Below are positions 18,367-62,287 of a stretch of 64,000 nucleotides of DNA, piece by piece (position 1 is the stretch's first letter; each line of letters starts with the position of its first letter). Source of the DNA: an uncultured Poribacteria bacterium (lineage in GTDB: Bacteria; Poribacteria; WGA-4E; WGA-3G); the NCBI GenBank assembly GCA_951828385.1, contig OX639973.1:2595200-2659199 (forward strand), given 5' to 3'. A program made the position numbers and the translations under genes. Below the pieces are notes generated by a model. That model did not search any database. It saw only the letters and a list, made by a program, of their open reading frames with translations, and had not been told where the DNA came from.

Positions 18367-18558
18367 TATAGCAAAGTTTAGAATTAATTGGGCACTCTCA
18401 AACAGTCTGAATACCTATAACAGGCATTCAGACTGGAAACACAAACTAAAAGTTTGTGCTACAAAGGAAACACAAACTGGAAGTTTGTGCTACAAAGACT
18501 GACACAAACTGGAAGTTTGTGCTACAAAGATGTCCACTTATTTATGGGCTTCACTATA
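18367..18558. mobile_element. MITE-like element, copy 1
   Basis: The element starts TATAGCAAAGTTTAGAATTA and ends in TTCACTATA; the ends are imperfect inverted repeats. It shares about 70 bp of near-identical 5' sequence (to GGCATTCAGACTGG) with the copy at 62162-62287. This copy has three units of CACAAACT-GGAAGTTTGTG-type palindrome followed by CTACAAAG; the other copy has one. The TA at each end suits a Tc1/IS630-type transposase, which is not in the window. Confidence 0.75.
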
Positions 18559-27447: not shown

Positions 27448-27476
27448 TTGACAACAACACTGGAATGTGCTACACT
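27448..27476 (+). promoter_or_regulatory. Sigma-70-type promoter of the locus A leader
   Basis: TTGACA (27448-27453), 17-nt spacer, TACACT (27471-27476). The transcript would begin near 27483 and run about 270 nt before the secreted-protein gene. Confidence 0.65.
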
Positions 27477-27599: not shown

Positions 27600-27658
27600 G
27601 TGCTAACCTAAATTGTAACACATAATGGATGCATTTTGTGAAACTTTTAGGTTAGCAC
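27600..27658 (+). promoter_or_regulatory. Conserved leader hairpin, locus A
   Basis: GTGCTAACCTAAA (27600-27612) and TTTAGGTTAGCAC (27646-27658) are exact complements. The loop keeps ATTTTGTGAAA, also present in the locus B copy at 50366-50417. Downstream both loci have GAGGA(AGA)TTGCC, which can pair with a later GGCAAT or GCAATC. Confidence 0.65.
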
Positions 27659-27755: not shown

Positions 27756-28214
27756 ATGAAAACGAGACAAATGAGTCTATTACGCGTCTTGTCTGTGATG
27801 GTGTTGTTGCTCTTTGCCGCACCTATGATGGATGGTGTCTTAACACTCTTCCAAAGTCCACATTTTAGCGAAACGACGTTCTTTGAAACCTCTGTTTACG
27901 CCCATCCGGAGAATCCTAGTGACGGCGAGAAACATAGGCACTCATTAAGATCATTTTGGGAAAAGTGTAAAGATTGTAGCTCAGATATAACCAAGTATAC
28001 CGTGTATGCGGTTTGGATCTTCGAAGCGATCTCTGGATCGGGGGGGTCGGGGCAGCAAACCGTCCGGGCGGTAAAGCAAGCAGATGAACGAGTCGTTACA
28101 GAAACAAAGGAGTGTGCCGTAGAAGTATGCCCGCCTCCCCCTCCGCCGCCTCCGCCGCCTCCGCCACCTAACGATGGCAACGATGGTGGCAATGATGGTG
28201 GCAATGATTCCTAA
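27756..28214 (+). CDS. Secreted protein with polyproline and NDGG tail
   Basis: 152 residues from ATG 27756 (TAGGAGAA 8 nt upstream); an earlier start would precede the leader features. A hydrophobic signal (VLSVMVLLLFAAPMM) and a probable cleavage after SVYA near 50 suggest export. The mature part contains CKDC, a helical YTVYAVWIFEAISG stretch, two further Cys, thirteen consecutive prolines and a tail of N-D-G-G repeats. No family is recognised. Its counterpart in locus B is the Cys-rich secreted gene split by the IS; both combine an exported helix of similar pattern with Cys pairs. The single late N-x-S (NDS at the C-terminus) is the only glycosylation sequon seen. Confidence 0.7.
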   Translation: MKTRQMSLLRVLSVMVLLLFAAPMMDGVLTLFQSPHFSETTFFETSVYAHPENPSDGEKHRHSLRSFWEKCKDCSSDITKYTVYAVWIFEAISGSGGSGQQTVRAVKQADERVVTETKECAVEVCPPPPPPPPPPPPPNDGNDGGNDGGNDS

Positions 28215-28235
28215 GTTCTATTGATATTTTCATGC

Positions 28236-28287
28236 GGTTGCATCTCATACGGATGTGTCTGGGATGCAACCCTATACCCACATCCGT
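28236..28287 (+). promoter_or_regulatory. H-type pseudoknot before a ribosome-binding site
   Basis: Stem 1: GGTTGCATC (28236-28244) with GATGCAACC (28263-28271), extendable by two pairs. Stem 2: ACGGATGTG (28249-28257) with CACATCCGT (28279-28287). The order A-B-A'-B' makes a pseudoknot. The Shine-Dalgarno AAGGAG starts four nt later. Confidence 0.55.
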
Positions 28288-28304
28288 GGAAAGGAGTCCC
28301 CTCA

Positions 28305-28820
28305 ATGGACCCAAAAAAAATGCTGATCAGACCCAAAAAGACGGTGGAGGCAGACGAAAAGAAAGCCGCGGCGGAAGTCGCCGAAGCCGCCGAAGAAAAA
28401 GAACTGCAAGAGCATTATGAGCATGCCAATAGTTTACTCAGCGCAGCCGAGAAGGACCCCGAAGAGGTAAAAGCAGCTGGCGAAAAAATAGGGGTAGACT
28501 TAAGTTTAATGGCGGAGCACGCGACTGCCATGAAAGCGAGATTAAAAGCGTCCGCAGGGAAGCCCCTTTCGGCGGAAGAGGAAACCGAAATCGCGGACGC
28601 GGAGAAGGGATCGTTGCTAAAGAAAGTTCTTGACGAAAAAATCCGCAAGGATTTCCAAGAAGAAAGCCCAGAAGAGCGCGCTGAGAGTGTTAAGCTGATG
28701 GAAAAGATGCTGCGGCGTTTTCCTCGTGCAATCAGGGAAAAACTCTTAAAGGAATTCAAGATGGTTGTTTCAGATGCACCTTCTGAAGCCGCCGAGTCAA
28801 ACGATAAGGAAAACGCGTAA
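28305..28820 (+). CDS. Coiled-coil protein of unknown function, locus A
   Basis: 171 residues from ATG 28305, 10 nt after AAGGAG. Starts near 28221 would run through the pseudoknot and lack a ribosome-binding site. The sequence is nearly all charged helix: VEADEKKAAAEVAEAAEEKE, then several EE/KK-rich segments and RRFPRAIREKLLKEFK near the end. No signal peptide or membrane segment, so it is predicted cytosolic, possibly a scaffold on the membrane protein encoded next. It may be the functional equivalent of the membrane-anchored coiled-coil protein at 52104-52829 in locus B. Translation could be controlled by the pseudoknot in its leader. No family recognised. Confidence 0.7.
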   Translation: MDPKKMLIRPKKTVEADEKKAAAEVAEAAEEKELQEHYEHANSLLSAAEKDPEEVKAAGEKIGVDLSLMAEHATAMKARLKASAGKPLSAEEETEIADAEKGSLLKKVLDEKIRKDFQEESPEERAESVKLMEKMLRRFPRAIREKLLKEFKMVVSDAPSEAAESNDKENA

Positions 28821-28839: not shown

Positions 28840-31245
28840 ATGAAACACCTCCCTTTCAAACGCATCGGCACGGGTCTGATCCTTTTAGGGCTCTTATGTC
28901 TCACCTTCTACATTCGGATTCAAGGTGTAGAACGGATTCCTGACGGACAGTTCACCGAAAACGATGCCTATCTCTTTCACAGGCAAGCAAATATCATCGC
29001 GGAACAGGGGGCTTTACCTGCCCGTGATATGGACCGGTGGCTGCCTCTCGGTAGAGATAACCCGCAGCTGCTCTCGCTCTTTTCTTATGCCATCGCCTAT
29101 ACACAAAAACTTTTTCCGTGGTGGTCTTTATATCAGATACAACTGTATCTCCCTGTCCTCTGTTTCACCCTGGCGATAGGTGTGCTGTTTCTATTCCTCA
29201 CCCGGTGCTACGGCGTGATGTTTGCAGCTATTGTGTCCGTGCTGTTAGCAACGCTCCCCGGGAGTATCAGTCGCAGTGCTGCAGGTTTCGGCGACAGGGA
29301 TGCATGGTACTATCTGATAGGGGTGCTCGTCGTCACCAGCTACTTATGGAAAGAACAGATGCCACCCGGGCGACGTAGATGGATTGCCACCGCGCTCGCT
29401 GGGTTTACCTGTTTCTTAGGTGGCATGAGTTGGGAAGGTTTCGGCGTTTTTGTCCTAATGGTTGCTGCGATAGAACTCTATAAGTTCTGCACCACAGACA
29501 CTGAGCAACACCTCACAGAATATCTGCTCTATCTGCTGATGTTCGTGCCGTGGCTCTATCTGATAAGTCCTGCCTATCACAGCGGATACGGAAACACTAC
29601 ACACGTCGCCGCCCTGATGCTACTACCACCGCTGACGGTCGCCGCCTTGCGTGGCACAAGATACCTACTGCTCCATTATTACTCACCGCTACGACATCAT
29701 AGCAGAAAACTGGCATGGGGATTAACCGCTCTCGGTCTTCTAACAGGCGTTGTGTATATACTTGTCTCTGCTGGCACTTTCGCAGAAACCGCCTCTCGTT
29801 TTCATGAGAGCCGCCTCCTCAAAGATGTCACTGAACTCGCGGATCCACATTTTAGGTATTGGCAGATCCGATACGGTGCGATCTTCGTCTTAGGCAGCAT
29901 AGGCTTGATCGTCGCACTCCTACATGTGTGGAAGTGGAACGGGCTACCTCTTGCACTCTCGCTGACGCTCTTCACCGCGACAACCTTCTTCCGTGACCCC
30001 CTCAACGAATGGACAGGCGAAAATCTCTGTAATACGTTGTTTATCGCTTCATTCGTTCTCACTGTCCTCACACTCGGCTTCATAACGCTCCGCTCTGTCG
30101 GGACACCGAAAAATGTGCTTGTGCCTCTCGCGATGATCGCATGGTTCCTTTTCTGGGTGAGTCTCTCACGGAGTGCGAAACGCAGTGACCTCTTTATCGG
30201 GCTGCCACTCGCTTACGGCACTGCATGGCTCCTGTACCTCTCACCGACCCATCTCATACAATGGCTCAAGGATAGAAATATCGTGTATCCGCAGTTTTCC
30301 GAAACGCGCGCGAAAACGATCTTCGCTGTCATCGTGTTAATCCCCATCCTCTTTTGGACACCTATTGGGGGACATGCCACCCGCTCCATCTATGCAGCGG
30401 CACGTATGAAGAATCCGACACCCGGGAAAGGCAGCGAAGCAAAAGCAATCCATTGGATGAAAGAGACACTCTCCGAAACCGCGGTGGTCGCCGCAAACTG
30501 GGGTTCTGGCAACAGAATTAACGTCCTCGGTGGTGTCAAAACCATCACCGACCCTGACCATTATCTCCCGCACTGGGTACACCTCTATTACCGACACATC
30601 TTCTGCGCACAATCCGAACGCGAGGCACTGGAGTTCTTGAAAACTCACAACGCAACACATCTGATGCTCAGCGAACACGGCATACTCTCTAATGCAGGGA
30701 GCTATTCATTCATTGGCAGCGATGAAAACTCGGACCGAATGTTTAAAATTCATCCACTTGAGAGAACGGAGACGACTATCGGTTCGCCATACCGTCTGTT
30801 ACCGAAGCGGTATAGCACGACAGATCCCTTTTTCGTTCTTGATATTGTCCGCAAGGATCTTGAAAGATTAACGGTCTCTGCCACCTTTGAAAACGGCACC
30901 CATCTCTCGAAAGAGATACATGTCTCCCACCATCACGATACACAAACCTCCCTGGATTTTCAAAACGGCGGTGCTATTCTCTACTTTAAACACAACGACG
31001 CTGAGCATAATTTCAGATTTCAGAAAGCCTACAGTGTTCCCGCCCCCGGTTGGAACAGTTTTTCCGTAAAAATCTTCTTTCGGGGAGAACACAGCGATGC
31101 CTTTGTCCCTGTTTACCCTGTAACAGGCGACGCGCCTCCCAAAATCAAAATCTGGGAGATCCACTATCCGCCCGACATCCAAACCAATCCGAAATACCTC
31201 AAAACAGGGTTCCCCGAAATCGACAAGGATTTACAAATCCACTAA
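28840..31245 (+). CDS. STT3-like membrane glycosyltransferase (GT-C fold), locus A
   Basis: 801 residues from ATG 28840; an in-frame ATG at 28765 overlaps the preceding gene. About 11-13 membrane segments are followed by a soluble domain of about 270 residues. STT3 features: an acidic residue in the first outer loop (TENDAYLFHR, about 40-49), the second motif GFGDRDAW (D152-R-D154) and SWEGFG after it. The WWDYG motif of oligosaccharyltransferases is replaced by AANWGSG, and the domain continues LGGVKTITDPDHY. Family knowledge: STT3/PglB moves lipid-linked glycans to Asn; whether this divergent type does so is not known. It aligns with 54341-56815 over its length. The GspC/PilP-like gene follows by 28 bp. 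Confidence 0.8.
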   Translation: MKHLPFKRIGTGLILLGLLCLTFYIRIQGVERIPDGQFTENDAYLFHRQANIIAEQGALPARDMDRWLPLGRDNPQLLSLFSYAIAYTQKLFPWWSLYQIQLYLPVLCFTLAIGVLFLFLTRCYGVMFAAIVSVLLATLPGSISRSAAGFGDRDAWYYLIGVLVVTSYLWKEQMPPGRRRWIATALAGFTCFLGGMSWEGFGVFVLMVAAIELYKFCTTDTEQHLTEYLLYLLMFVPWLYLISPAYHSGYGNTTHVAALMLLPPLTVAALRGTRYLLLHYYSPLRHHSRKLAWGLTALGLLTGVVYILVSAGTFAETASRFHESRLLKDVTELADPHFRYWQIRYGAIFVLGSIGLIVALLHVWKWNGLPLALSLTLFTATTFFRDPLNEWTGENLCNTLFIASFVLTVLTLGFITLRSVGTPKNVLVPLAMIAWFLFWVSLSRSAKRSDLFIGLPLAYGTAWLLYLSPTHLIQWLKDRNIVYPQFSETRAKTIFAVIVLIPILFWTPIGGHATRSIYAAARMKNPTPGKGSEAKAIHWMKETLSETAVVAANWGSGNRINVLGGVKTITDPDHYLPHWVHLYYRHIFCAQSEREALEFLKTHNATHLMLSEHGILSNAGSYSFIGSDENSDRMFKIHPLERTETTIGSPYRLLPKRYSTTDPFFVLDIVRKDLERLTVSATFENGTHLSKEIHVSHHHDTQTSLDFQNGGAILYFKHNDAEHNFRFQKAYSVPAPGWNSFSVKIFFRGEHSDAFVPVYPVTGDAPPKIKIWEIHYPPDIQTNPKYLKTGFPEIDKDLQIH

Positions 31246-51552: not shown

Positions 51553-52038
51553 TAGAAATACAGCACTTTTAACGCTTCTGGTTTTCACCTTCACACTCTT
51601 CACACCCGTTTTCATGCAGCCGAAAGAGGCTGAGGCTGTTGACGCTTGTGAAGTTTGTAAAATGGTAAGCGAACCAGAGGTCAGTGGTGCCATAACAATG
51701 GTTTTTGAGGTCTTAAAAGTGTCAACCGCCTGTTTAGTTTCGTGCCAAGTTATCAAAAACTGGCTGTTTAACAAGTGTACAGCGGAAGGCACTAAAGGTT
51801 GTGATGGATCTACACGCACATGTAATACAGATCAGACACCGAAAGGATGTGGAGCAGACCATTGCGTATGTAAAAAGAGTGATCACGAGGGTACCTCTAC
51901 CTGCACCAATGATCGCTGTAACAACCAAGGCACATATCGTAATTGTGTGGGACACACATGCACAACCGATCTTATTACGGGTAGTTATAGCGGATATTGG
52001 TAGCGATACCCAGAAACTCTAATAACATCAATACCTTT

Positions 52039-52081
52039 CTCTCAACGCTATCGTTGGACTCATAAATGATAGCGTTGAGAG
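52039..52081 (+). promoter_or_regulatory. 14-bp perfect hairpin before the membrane coiled-coil gene
   Basis: CTCTCAACGCTATC (52039-52052) and GATAGCGTTGAGAG (52068-52081) with a 15-nt loop. It ends 22 bp before ATG 52104 and lacks a T-run, so it may act on translation or stability, in a position like the pseudoknot of locus A. Confidence 0.6.
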
Positions 52082-52103: not shown

Positions 52104-52829
52104 ATGAAACACCCGCGAAAAGCGAAACACATCCGACAGAAGCAGCAGGAAAAACGTTTCACCCGGTGGTTTGCAGCAGGTGGCATGGCATTTGTCCTCT
52201 TGGCAATCGGCGGACTCCTTTTCTGGCAGAGCAACCAGACACTGCCAGAGCCAATTAAGATTTACAAATCCACACCCTGGACACCATCGCCCACGCGGAA
52301 GTCCACGACAGCCGGAACACAGCAACCCGACAGGACTTCACATATCCATCACCCCGATGACGGACACCATCACGAATCCGTCCCACCTGAAAAGCCTACG
52401 GACGCATCAAAAATCGGGGAAGTTTTAGACGATGAAACCCCGACAGATATATCAGCACTCACAGATGCAGATATCGCTACGTTGGATCATGAAGCTTTGC
52501 ATGCGAAAATAGAAAGAATCGGAAAAGAATTCGAGTCCATACTCGCTGAAATAAATGAAAAGTACCCGGAAGTTCAAGAAGTTATGTCTATCTCCCATGA
52601 AGAACTTCACAAACGGTACCCAACCCAAGCATCACGGGAGGCACTCAATGAACGGCTCGACCAGATGCGCAGTGAGTTTAAAGACCGAGCCATCCAACTG
52701 CTTTCAGAACTCCCGACAGAGACGCAACTGGAGTACATCATACGGATAGACGAACAGATTTCTAAAACCCACGGAGATGAAGCTGCCAACGAGATGACTG
52801 CAGAACTCTTGGATAAACTTAAACTCTAA
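52104..52829 (+). CDS. Membrane-anchored coiled-coil protein, locus B
   Basis: 241 residues from ATG 52104 (GGAGAGACCTCT upstream). A basic N-terminus (KHPRKAKHIRQKQQEKRF) and one membrane segment (WFAAGGMAFVLLAIGGLLFW, 22-41) give an N-in topology. A Pro/Thr/His-rich linker with HIHHPDDGHHHE (a possible metal site) is followed by about 120 residues of coiled coil (ALHAKIERIGKEFESILAEI, LNERLDQMRSEFKDRAIQLL). No family recognised. It probably extends into the periplasm. The cytosolic coiled-coil protein at 28305 in locus A holds the same place before an STT3-like gene. Confidence 0.7.
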   Translation: MKHPRKAKHIRQKQQEKRFTRWFAAGGMAFVLLAIGGLLFWQSNQTLPEPIKIYKSTPWTPSPTRKSTTAGTQQPDRTSHIHHPDDGHHHESVPPEKPTDASKIGEVLDDETPTDISALTDADIATLDHEALHAKIERIGKEFESILAEINEKYPEVQEVMSISHEELHKRYPTQASREALNERLDQMRSEFKDRAIQLLSELPTETQLEYIIRIDEQISKTHGDEAANEMTAELLDKLKL

Positions 52830-54340: not shown

Positions 54341-56815
54341 ATGAAACGTGCATATCTCATTCGCATCGGTATCGCTGTCCTCTTTCTCAGTATCGGAATG
54401 CTCACCGTATGGCTCCGACTCCAAGTCGTTCACGGTATCCCCGAAGCACAGTTTCTCGGTGCTGATTGCTTTCTCTACTACGCACAAGCGGAAACCATCG
54501 CCGAACACGGCATGTTGCCCGAACGCGATATCCATCGTTGGCTCCCCCTTGGTAGAGACAACACGCAACTGCTGCCATTCTGGTCTTACGCCCTCGCCTA
54601 CACCCACAAAGCACTATCGGTGTTTTTACCGAGTCTATCCCTGTATCACTGGACACTCTACGCCCCAACGGTCTGCTTTTGTATCGGCCTTGCTGCGCTC
54701 TGTCTCTTTCTCTACCGCGGTTACGGACTGCTTTTCTCAAGCCTCGTTGGTTTCTTTATGGCAACGCTCCCGAGTGCCATCGGACGCAGCACCGCCGGGT
54801 TCAGCGACCGGGATGCTTGGTGCTGGATGCTTGGTATCTTTGTTGTCATGCTTCACGTCGCCTCACTACAGACACAGCACACACGGCGACGCCTGACGCT
54901 CACGCTAGCAAGCGGTTTCACGATGTTTCTCGGCGGATATTCCTGGGAAGGCTTCGGCGTGTTTGGACTCATCCTCCTCTTCGTAGAACTCTGGCGGTTG
55001 CTCACTTCTGAAACAGAAGAAGACCTTCAGTATTACGGCATCTGGGTCTTAACCTTCGTGCCACCGTTATACCTCATCTCTCCCGCTTATCACAACGGCT
55101 ACGGGTTCGCAAAATACCTCGCAGCATTGGTGCTCATGCCACCACTCGTGCTGTTAGGGATGCGCGCCTTTCGTTACCTGCTGTTGTCGAAAATAGAGAA
55201 ACTCCGACCACATGCACGCACTCTGTCCTTTTGTCTGATAGGTGTCGGATGTCTCACGGGACTCGGCTACACCCTCACACAGATAGACACCTTCGCCGTC
55301 ACCACTGTGCCACTGAGCCAAAATGCCCTGATGTCCATCATCGGCGAACTCCAAAATCCAAAGTTAGGGTATTGGAGAACCTTATACGGCAGCACGTTCG
55401 TCTTCGGCAGCCTCGGGCTCATACTCACTTTTCTTCGGCTGTCCGCCACCACCGAGGTTTCCGAAAAACACCGCAATTGGAAACGATACCGAGACCGACT
55501 TTTGACAACAATCCCGCTCATCCTCTTTCTCCTAACCACCTTTTTCCGGGAACCCCTTGATAAAGTGGCAGGCGAAGCCACCGGGAACCTCCTCTTCTTT
55601 ACAGCTTTGGGCGGGACACTTGTCTGTTTACTATTCACCGCATGGCGGCGACAGACATCCATCAAAAGTGAGATGATTGACGTTGCGATGACAGCATGGT
55701 TCGTTGTCTGGCTTGCACTTACCCGCGACGCGACACGCTACAACTTCTTTTTCTCCCTCTCCACAGCATTCTTCACCGCTACGTTCATTGAATTTTTAGC
55801 GAACACCGCCAGCAAGAAACTCCGTGACTCCAAATACATCAGCAATGCTTTCCGAGAAAAGTTCCTTCACACCCCCCTAAAAACAGGGATCGTCACCGGG
55901 ATACTCGCCCTCATCCTCTTTTGGAGCAGCATCGGCGGGTATGCCAAACACATCATCCCCGCCGGCAGAGAACATCATACTGTCTACCCCACAGAAAACA
56001 CAGAAGCCGAGGCATACCGCTGGATGAAAAAAGAACTCTCTCGTGATGCCATCGTCGCCGCAAACTTCGACCACGGCACGATGATGAACAACCTTGGCGG
56101 GGTCAAAACCATCATCGATCAAGACCACTATCTCCAACACTGGATCCATCTCTACAACCGGCACGTCTTTGGTGCACGTTCCGAACGCGAAGCTTTGGAA
56201 TTCCTAAAAACCCACAACGCTACACATCTCCTCCTCTCTGAAGAAGACGTTCTTTACGGGGCAGGGTCTTTTTCAAGAATTGGCAGCGATGAAACAGATG
56301 ACCGAGAACTAAAAAGAACCCGGATGAAACTTTTGCGGACAGAAGACGGGACTCCTTGGCGGCTCTTTGAACCCAAAGAGACACCTTTTGCCTACATAAA
56401 TACACCGCCCGATACAGAGACCGAGTTCCTGACGGCACGTCTGAAAAATGGGAGCACCGTCAAACTGCCTTACGTTGCCTTCTCGGAGACCCAACACAAA
56501 CGGCCCGAAGCCCTGCCAGAGACAGCAGAAAACGAATATGGCGGGGTCCTCCTCTTTTTCCATGAACACCACGGTCGATTAAACCTCGAAAGAGGCACCT
56601 ATCTGCCACCAGCTACGTGGAATAACCTCACCATCAAACTCTTTATGCGTGAAGCACACACCGAGGCGTTCGTCAAAATCTACCCGACAGATGAAGCGAC
56701 GAAGGCAAAGGTAAAGATTTGGGAGATTCACTACCCTCCCGACATCCAAACGAATGACAAATACCTTGAGACAGGGTATCCAGAAAAGTCTTTCAGGGAG
56801 TTGCAACCCAGATAA
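54341..56815 (+). CDS. STT3-like membrane glycosyltransferase (GT-C fold), locus B
   Basis: 824 residues, aligned with 28840-31245 throughout. About 12 membrane segments, then a soluble domain of about 280 residues. Conserved with the paralogue: the first-loop acidic residue (FLGADCFLYYAQAE), WLPLGRDN, GFSDRDAW (D156-R-D158), SWEGFGVFGL, and after the membrane part AANFDHGTMMNNLGGVKTII with DQDHYLQHWIHLYNRHVFG, where NFDHG replaces the WWDYG of true oligosaccharyltransferases. EREALEFLKTHNATHLLLSE and KVKIWEIHYPPDIQTN are near-identical in both. Glycan transfer is inferred from fold only. The CDP-alcohol transferase gene starts 2 bp later. Confidence 0.8.
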   Translation: MKRAYLIRIGIAVLFLSIGMLTVWLRLQVVHGIPEAQFLGADCFLYYAQAETIAEHGMLPERDIHRWLPLGRDNTQLLPFWSYALAYTHKALSVFLPSLSLYHWTLYAPTVCFCIGLAALCLFLYRGYGLLFSSLVGFFMATLPSAIGRSTAGFSDRDAWCWMLGIFVVMLHVASLQTQHTRRRLTLTLASGFTMFLGGYSWEGFGVFGLILLFVELWRLLTSETEEDLQYYGIWVLTFVPPLYLISPAYHNGYGFAKYLAALVLMPPLVLLGMRAFRYLLLSKIEKLRPHARTLSFCLIGVGCLTGLGYTLTQIDTFAVTTVPLSQNALMSIIGELQNPKLGYWRTLYGSTFVFGSLGLILTFLRLSATTEVSEKHRNWKRYRDRLLTTIPLILFLLTTFFREPLDKVAGEATGNLLFFTALGGTLVCLLFTAWRRQTSIKSEMIDVAMTAWFVVWLALTRDATRYNFFFSLSTAFFTATFIEFLANTASKKLRDSKYISNAFREKFLHTPLKTGIVTGILALILFWSSIGGYAKHIIPAGREHHTVYPTENTEAEAYRWMKKELSRDAIVAANFDHGTMMNNLGGVKTIIDQDHYLQHWIHLYNRHVFGARSEREALEFLKTHNATHLLLSEEDVLYGAGSFSRIGSDETDDRELKRTRMKLLRTEDGTPWRLFEPKETPFAYINTPPDTETEFLTARLKNGSTVKLPYVAFSETQHKRPEALPETAENEYGGVLLFFHEHHGRLNLERGTYLPPATWNNLTIKLFMREAHTEAFVKIYPTDEATKAKVKIWEIHYPPDIQTNDKYLETGYPEKSFRELQPR

Positions 56816-62166: not shown

Positions 62167-62287
62167 TAAAGTTTAGAATTAATTGGGCACTCTCAAACAG
62201 TCTGAATACCTATAACAGGCATTCAGACTGGCACAAACTGGAAGTTTGTGGTACGAATGTGTCTATTTATTTTTAGGATTCACTATA
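62162..62287. mobile_element. MITE-like element, copy 2
   Basis: Starts TATAGTAAAGTTTAGAATTA and ends GGATTCACTATA, 126 bp. Nearly identical to copy 1 (18367-18558) over the first 70 bp, with one CACAAACTGGAAGTTTGTG palindrome against three there. Confidence 0.75.

Follow-up and report, generated by a model that had tools for sequence, protein, structure and literature searches.

A conserved-position hairpin behind small secreted-protein genes in STT3-like gene clusters of Poribacteria

In operons of the SRPS type, stem-loops without U-runs lie behind the gene that is needed in excess, and the loop shields the processed upstream message at its 3' end (PMC4423207). The cip-cel cellulosome operon of Clostridium (Ruminiclostridium) cellulolyticum contains stem-loops with energies of -6.6 to -31.8 kcal/mol, mostly without U-runs (PMC4423207). 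Clostridial ABC importers carry weak internal terminators behind the genes for substrate-binding proteins, and a U-rich tract is kept in these (PMC9045158). Riboswitches of the preQ1-I type are H-type pseudoknots located at the Shine-Dalgarno sequence (PMC10622847, PMC11625349).

The element described here lies between the first two genes of a cluster (locus A) in a 64,000-nucleotide stretch of an uncultured Poribacteria genome, which is referred to as the window. As in cip-cel, an intergenic stem-loop marks the 3' end of a gene early in a (likely) multigene operon, with similar fold energies and mostly without U-runs; the differences are another phylum and gene system, a fixed position that recurs in many paralogous clusters, and a description of the present case from sequence. 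The ABC importer terminators share with it a hairpin behind a secreted-protein gene and ahead of genes for membrane partners, but the Poribacteria hairpins lack even the weak U-rich tract found there. The likeness to preQ1-I riboswitches, namely interleaved stems ending near a Shine-Dalgarno sequence, is confined to the window's genome, and the element differs from them in having no family match, an intercistronic position, an unconserved second stem, and a cluster that shows no trace of queuosine genes.

Sequence and gene setting of the element

The features of locus A are as follows.

27448..27476, + strand: promoter-like TTGACA-17-TACACT upstream of the small secreted gene, a consensus match only
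27756..28214, + strand: small secreted-type protein gene (152 aa), first of the cluster; hydrophobic N-terminus, Pro run, Asn/Asp/Gly repeat tail
28232..28275, + strand: intercistronic nested hairpin, folded alone; core 28236-28247/28260-28271 with short inner and outer helices, -20.8 kcal/mol
28236..28271, + strand: stem A, 9 bp, 12 bp when extended; from sequence, shuffles and relatives
28249..28287, + strand: stem B, 9 bp, interleaved with stem A (the pseudoknot option); weak or lost in relatives
28278..28289, + strand: competing mini-hairpin CCAC-ATCC-GTGG adjoining the Shine-Dalgarno sequence; from the fold and the consensus fold
28290..28296, + strand: Shine-Dalgarno AAAGGAG; from sequence
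28305..28820, + strand: second gene, a 171-aa charged helical protein with no Pfam family
28840..31245, + strand: STT3-like oligosaccharyltransferase gene (801 aa), a membrane enzyme with 10 matching places in its own genome
31274..31738, + strand: small downstream gene similar to type II secretion protein C (E 9e-6, marginally below the Pfam cut-off)

An earlier note on this DNA had described two exact interlocking 9-bp stems with loops of 4, 5 and 7 nt, which direct reading of 28236-28287 confirmed. Stem A is formed by perfect pairing of GGTTGCATC (28236-28244) with GATGCAACC (28263-28271), and stem B by equally perfect pairing of ACGGATGTG (28249-28257) with CACATCCGT (28279-28287); the two interleave with spacers of 4, 5 and 7 nt. 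The Shine-Dalgarno sequence, which had been placed within 4 nt of stem B, is indeed there: AAAGGAG starts 2 nt past the stem, followed by the ATG of the second gene at 28305. The leader position that had been assumed does not hold, as the element is not promoter-proximal; it starts 21 nt past the stop of the upstream gene and occupies most of the 90-nt gap between the first and second genes.

The interleaved 9+9 arrangement is real and beyond chance for the 64-kb window, in agreement with the view that two such perfect stems are unlikely to arise at random. A single interleaved perfect 9+9 pair within 60 nt occurs in the window and none in 200 whole-window dinucleotide shuffles, while interleaved 8+8 pairs give four overlapping matches against a shuffled mean of 0.09. 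With stem A given, shuffling of loop against tail in the window's genome yields a pairing as strong as stem B with P ~0.003. Stem B nevertheless has two competitors. Stem A continues inward through 28245-28247/28260-28262 and 28249-28251/28256-28258 into a nested hairpin, and the mini-hairpin CCAC/GTGG (28278-28281/28286-28289) likewise uses bases of stem B. The energy of the nested fold with upstream bases included is -37.3. When the gap adopts its minimum-energy fold, TTCCT at the stop codon (28208-28212) is paired with AGGAG.

Searches with the Rfam 15 covariance models returned nothing relevant to the element at gathering or permissive thresholds (E up to 10), and no further copy of its sequence was present in its own genome. 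Having no relevant Rfam match and one copy per genome, and lying between two genes, the element gives no support to its former reading as a riboswitch or repressor site. When 38 genus and 59 family genomes were searched with a covariance model, only the orthologous gaps plus weak, partial matches were recovered, and a scan for knots in the upstream regions of paralogous clusters found only the orthologous gap of genome G002 plus scattered matches unrelated to the gap hairpins. One of the covariance-model matches, in G003 at E 0.001, covers only the stretch preceding the hairpin. This stretch (G003:C71:12809-12861, L092) resembles the pre-hairpin sequence of G010 and G020 and occurs behind an unrelated gene, and thus may be a dispersed element.

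Because a promoter-like site precedes the first gene, none was scored in the 28215-28304 gap by the same scan, and the genes are closely spaced (the STT3-like gene starts ~20 bases beyond the second gene), the secreted-protein gene, the second gene and the STT3-like gene likely form one operon, although the number of promoter-like sites found in the scan equals the shuffled expectation. Assignment of the third gene to the STT3 superfamily is based on 4 of 12 family members matching PF02516 (best E 1.5e-16) and on the match of the family profile to STT3 in PDB. Upstream of the small secreted gene, at 27600-27658, there is a perfect inverted repeat of 13 bp whose arms are 33 nt apart.

Fate of the two stems in orthologous gaps

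Orthologs of the second gene are found in 6 of the 38 genus genomes, the window's own included, and the corresponding gaps (among them those of G029, G002, G020, G010 and G036) were aligned. G029 and G002 carry stem A with identical sequence. The G020/G010 lineage retains all nine pairs, four of them changed on both sides, with additional G-U pairs. In G036 a ~300-bp insertion splits the stem A hairpin, and the two copies of the target that it duplicated are still discernible. The unguided consensus fold consists of a nested hairpin, in which two pairs are added to stem A, and of the CCAC/GTGG mini-hairpin, and stem A in the orthologous gaps extends to a nested 12-bp hairpin. Two-sided changes affect four pairs within the 9-bp stem A and five within the consensus hairpin; since the alignment is small and the changes of stem A represent one lineage split, the evidence for compensatory evolution of the hairpin is good, if not abundant.

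Two further observations were made in these gaps. The insertion in G036 (L067, G036:C31:43332-43770) has terminal inverted repeats GTGTCAATTT/AAATTGACAC and a target duplication of ~26 bp inside the hairpin. Moreover, the gaps of G020 and G010 (L010, L011) are nearly identical despite far more divergent second-gene proteins, and the upstream gene has been lost in G020, which suggests recombination at the gap border.

Stem B shows a different history. It comprises seven pairs with one two-sided change in G020/G010 and six contiguous pairs in the joined sequence of G036. In the closest relative, G029, three of its nine pairs fail, and a loop change there gives the nested fold a GNRA-like loop instead. 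The homologous bases of G002 are unpaired; an apparent compensation there (AGGTGTG/CATACCT) was dropped, as only 2 nt would be left to span a 9-bp stem and the position is not homologous. Loop-against-tail shuffling, which gave P ~0.003 in the window's genome, gives 0.06 to 0.5 in the relatives. The Dirks-Pierce model assigns a pseudoknot a penalty of 9.6 kcal/mol. With this value, the estimate for the window's genome favours the knot over the local nested fold by ~2.5 kcal/mol, whereas in every relative the knot is equal to or worse than the nested fold.

Both stems had been expected to persist in orthologous leaders, with compensatory changes, if the knot were functional. This was borne out for stem A, with its four two-sided changes in G020/G010, and mostly failed for stem B, which is kept only in part and shows one such change, so that the pseudoknot-regulator reading is only partly supported. 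The knot may form in the window's species, yet it is not the part that evolution kept, and stem B would not be the core of the element but an additional, lineage-specific pairing between the loop and the ribosome-binding region.

Hairpins at the matching position in paralogous clusters

A second STT3-like gene of the window (54344-56788) is preceded by a counterpart at locus B.

52039..52081, + strand: unrelated 14-17 bp hairpin at the matching position, flanked by a small gene whose stop lies near 52003 and by the next gene, which starts with ATG at 52104

A hairpin scan showed that several clusters in relatives likewise have a sequence-unrelated hairpin of equal strength at this position. 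In a first batch of loci, the mean z was -2.7 behind the small secreted gene vs -0.9 in other gaps (p = 0.003), with no strong hairpin in four gaps (L054, L058, L064, L071). As this batch had prompted the hypothesis, a second batch of 39 new loci with automatically called genes was analysed, the tested gap being the one that follows the first small gene whose product has a hydrophobic N-terminus. Among the 20 resulting hold-out gaps, 18 had z <= -2 and 14 had z <= -4 (mean -5.0), compared with a mean of -1.8 in other gaps of the same loci (p = 6e-5); the two exceptions, L114 and L126, lacked a strong hairpin with the genes as called automatically. For comparison, 135 ordinary same-strand gaps were taken from 20 sampled 20 kb stretches (400 kb) of the window's own genome. 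Their mean z was near -0.6; 20 of them reached z <= -2 (Fisher p = 3e-11 against the hold-out gaps) and 7 reached z <= -4 (p = 1e-10). Some loci are orthologous to each other (e.g. L128, L133, L134, L136), so these counts are not fully independent and the effective n is smaller; the enrichment holds over clearly different hairpin sequences.

In a set of 30 hairpins, the stems have 10 to 25 pairs, mostly start <50 nt after the upstream stop, and mostly end <35 nt before the next start. None of the 30 has at least 5 T in the next 8 bases (mean 1.5 T in 8). Apical loops of the paralogous hairpins measure 3-9 nt, too short for a 9-bp knot unless the stem opens. Mismatches in the arms are G-U in 19 cases vs A-C in 4 (p = 0.003; 16 to 4 without three obvious orthologs) in a set picked partly by RNA folding energy, which slightly favours G-U; this excess speaks for the sense RNA, and not a DNA repeat, as the target of selection.

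STT3-like genes (28840-31245 and 54344-56788 in the window; loci L016-L045) are strongly amplified in these genomes, with 10 matching places in the window's own genome and 30 in G010. Many of the clusters start with a small secreted protein whose tail is rich in Cys/Ser/Asp/Asn; membrane-anchored helical proteins come next, and some of these carry a PIKIYK motif. In other clusters STT3 is paired with an FtsX-like permease.

Possible roles of the hairpin

The hairpin itself is well supported, and from its sequence context we infer its mechanism, together with co-transcription, RNA processing and an effect on the expression ratio. On balance, the element is best read as an intercistronic hairpin of a polycistronic message that acts as a 3'-end protector or processing barrier of the SRPS type; attenuation ranks second and a pseudoknot switch third. 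The message would run from the small secreted protein through the charged helical protein to the STT3-like glycosyltransferase, with the hairpin just past the stop of the secreted gene, just ahead of the next ribosome-binding site and without a terminator U-tract. There it would shield the 3' end of the secreted-protein message or block processing, and thereby probably set the amount of product per gene. As in SRPS operons, a stable intergenic stem-loop is present at the 3' end of the upstream gene, and with no U-run it is not a classical terminator.

A leaky internal terminator, at which part of the polymerases stop and leave more message of the secreted gene than of the downstream genes, would have the position and predicted outcome of the clostridial ABC importer terminators, and weak terminators with low U content do exist (PMC9045158). 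This attenuator appears unlikely here, given that none of the 30 hairpins has a T-rich, hence U-rich, tract directly 3' of the stem and that a terminator scan of the gap found none.

It is also rather unlikely that the pseudoknot serves as a translational switch of the second gene, operated by a ligand or a protein such as the gene's own product, with stem B controlling access to the Shine-Dalgarno sequence. The absence of the exact 9+9 knot from the shuffled windows, the low chance probability of stem B given stem A, the estimated energy advantage in the window's genome (with the 9.6 kcal/mol penalty) and the partial retention of stem B in G020/G010 all speak for a switch. These points are opposed by the broken stem B of the closest ortholog, the lack of a homologous pairing in G002, a nested fold that is as good or better in all relatives, the short apical loops of the paralogous hairpins, and the missing Rfam match. 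A compromise, placed lower again as a tentative idea, is a two-state element: in this lineage, the loop of an ancestral intercistronic hairpin would have begun to pair near the start of the next gene, in its ribosome-binding region, and the hairpin would both shield the secreted message and gate translation of the second gene in a cluster for STT3-based secretion or glycosylation.

Translational coupling through a shared lock, in which the upstream stop region pairs with the next Shine-Dalgarno sequence and the hairpin joins them, agrees with the TTCCT/AGGAG pairing in the window's gap, but is improbable: across 30 loci, complementarity between the flanks does not exceed that of shuffled sequence (combined p = 0.80), and a general Shine-Dalgarno lock was rejected on this basis. 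Least credible of all is a DNA-level element (a recombination or integron-like site, or a mobile repeat) bordering exchangeable secreted-protein genes, as might be suggested by upstream genes that differ between relatives (G020, G036), the insertion within the G036 copy and the attC-like placement of hairpins behind small variable ORFs, since the hairpins have no common core sequence (no core sites shared by all were seen when the arms were compared by eye with the attC core motif GTTRRRY/RYYYAAC), the sequence is single-copy in the genome, and both the G-U excess over A-C, which DNA repeats would not favour, and compensatory changes that keep G-U pairs are at odds with it.

Many paralogous STT3-like clusters of Poribacteria thus follow a rule, with a strong hairpin behind the first, fast-changing secreted gene whose position is kept and whose sequence is not. 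If the hairpins are SRPS-like, the small secreted protein would be produced in excess, and the genes behind it would encode the machinery that handles it; this would aid the reading of an uncharacterised, heavily amplified gene system and provide a case beyond clostridia and E. coli, where SRPS has been studied.

Elsewhere in the window, a 33-nt hairpin, CAGTCTGAATACCTATAACAGGCATTCAGACTG, is found twice in intergenic positions (18403-18435 and 62198-62230). Both copies have a short ACAAACT...AGTTTGT inverted repeat behind them, and the hairpin is probably a dispersed repeat.
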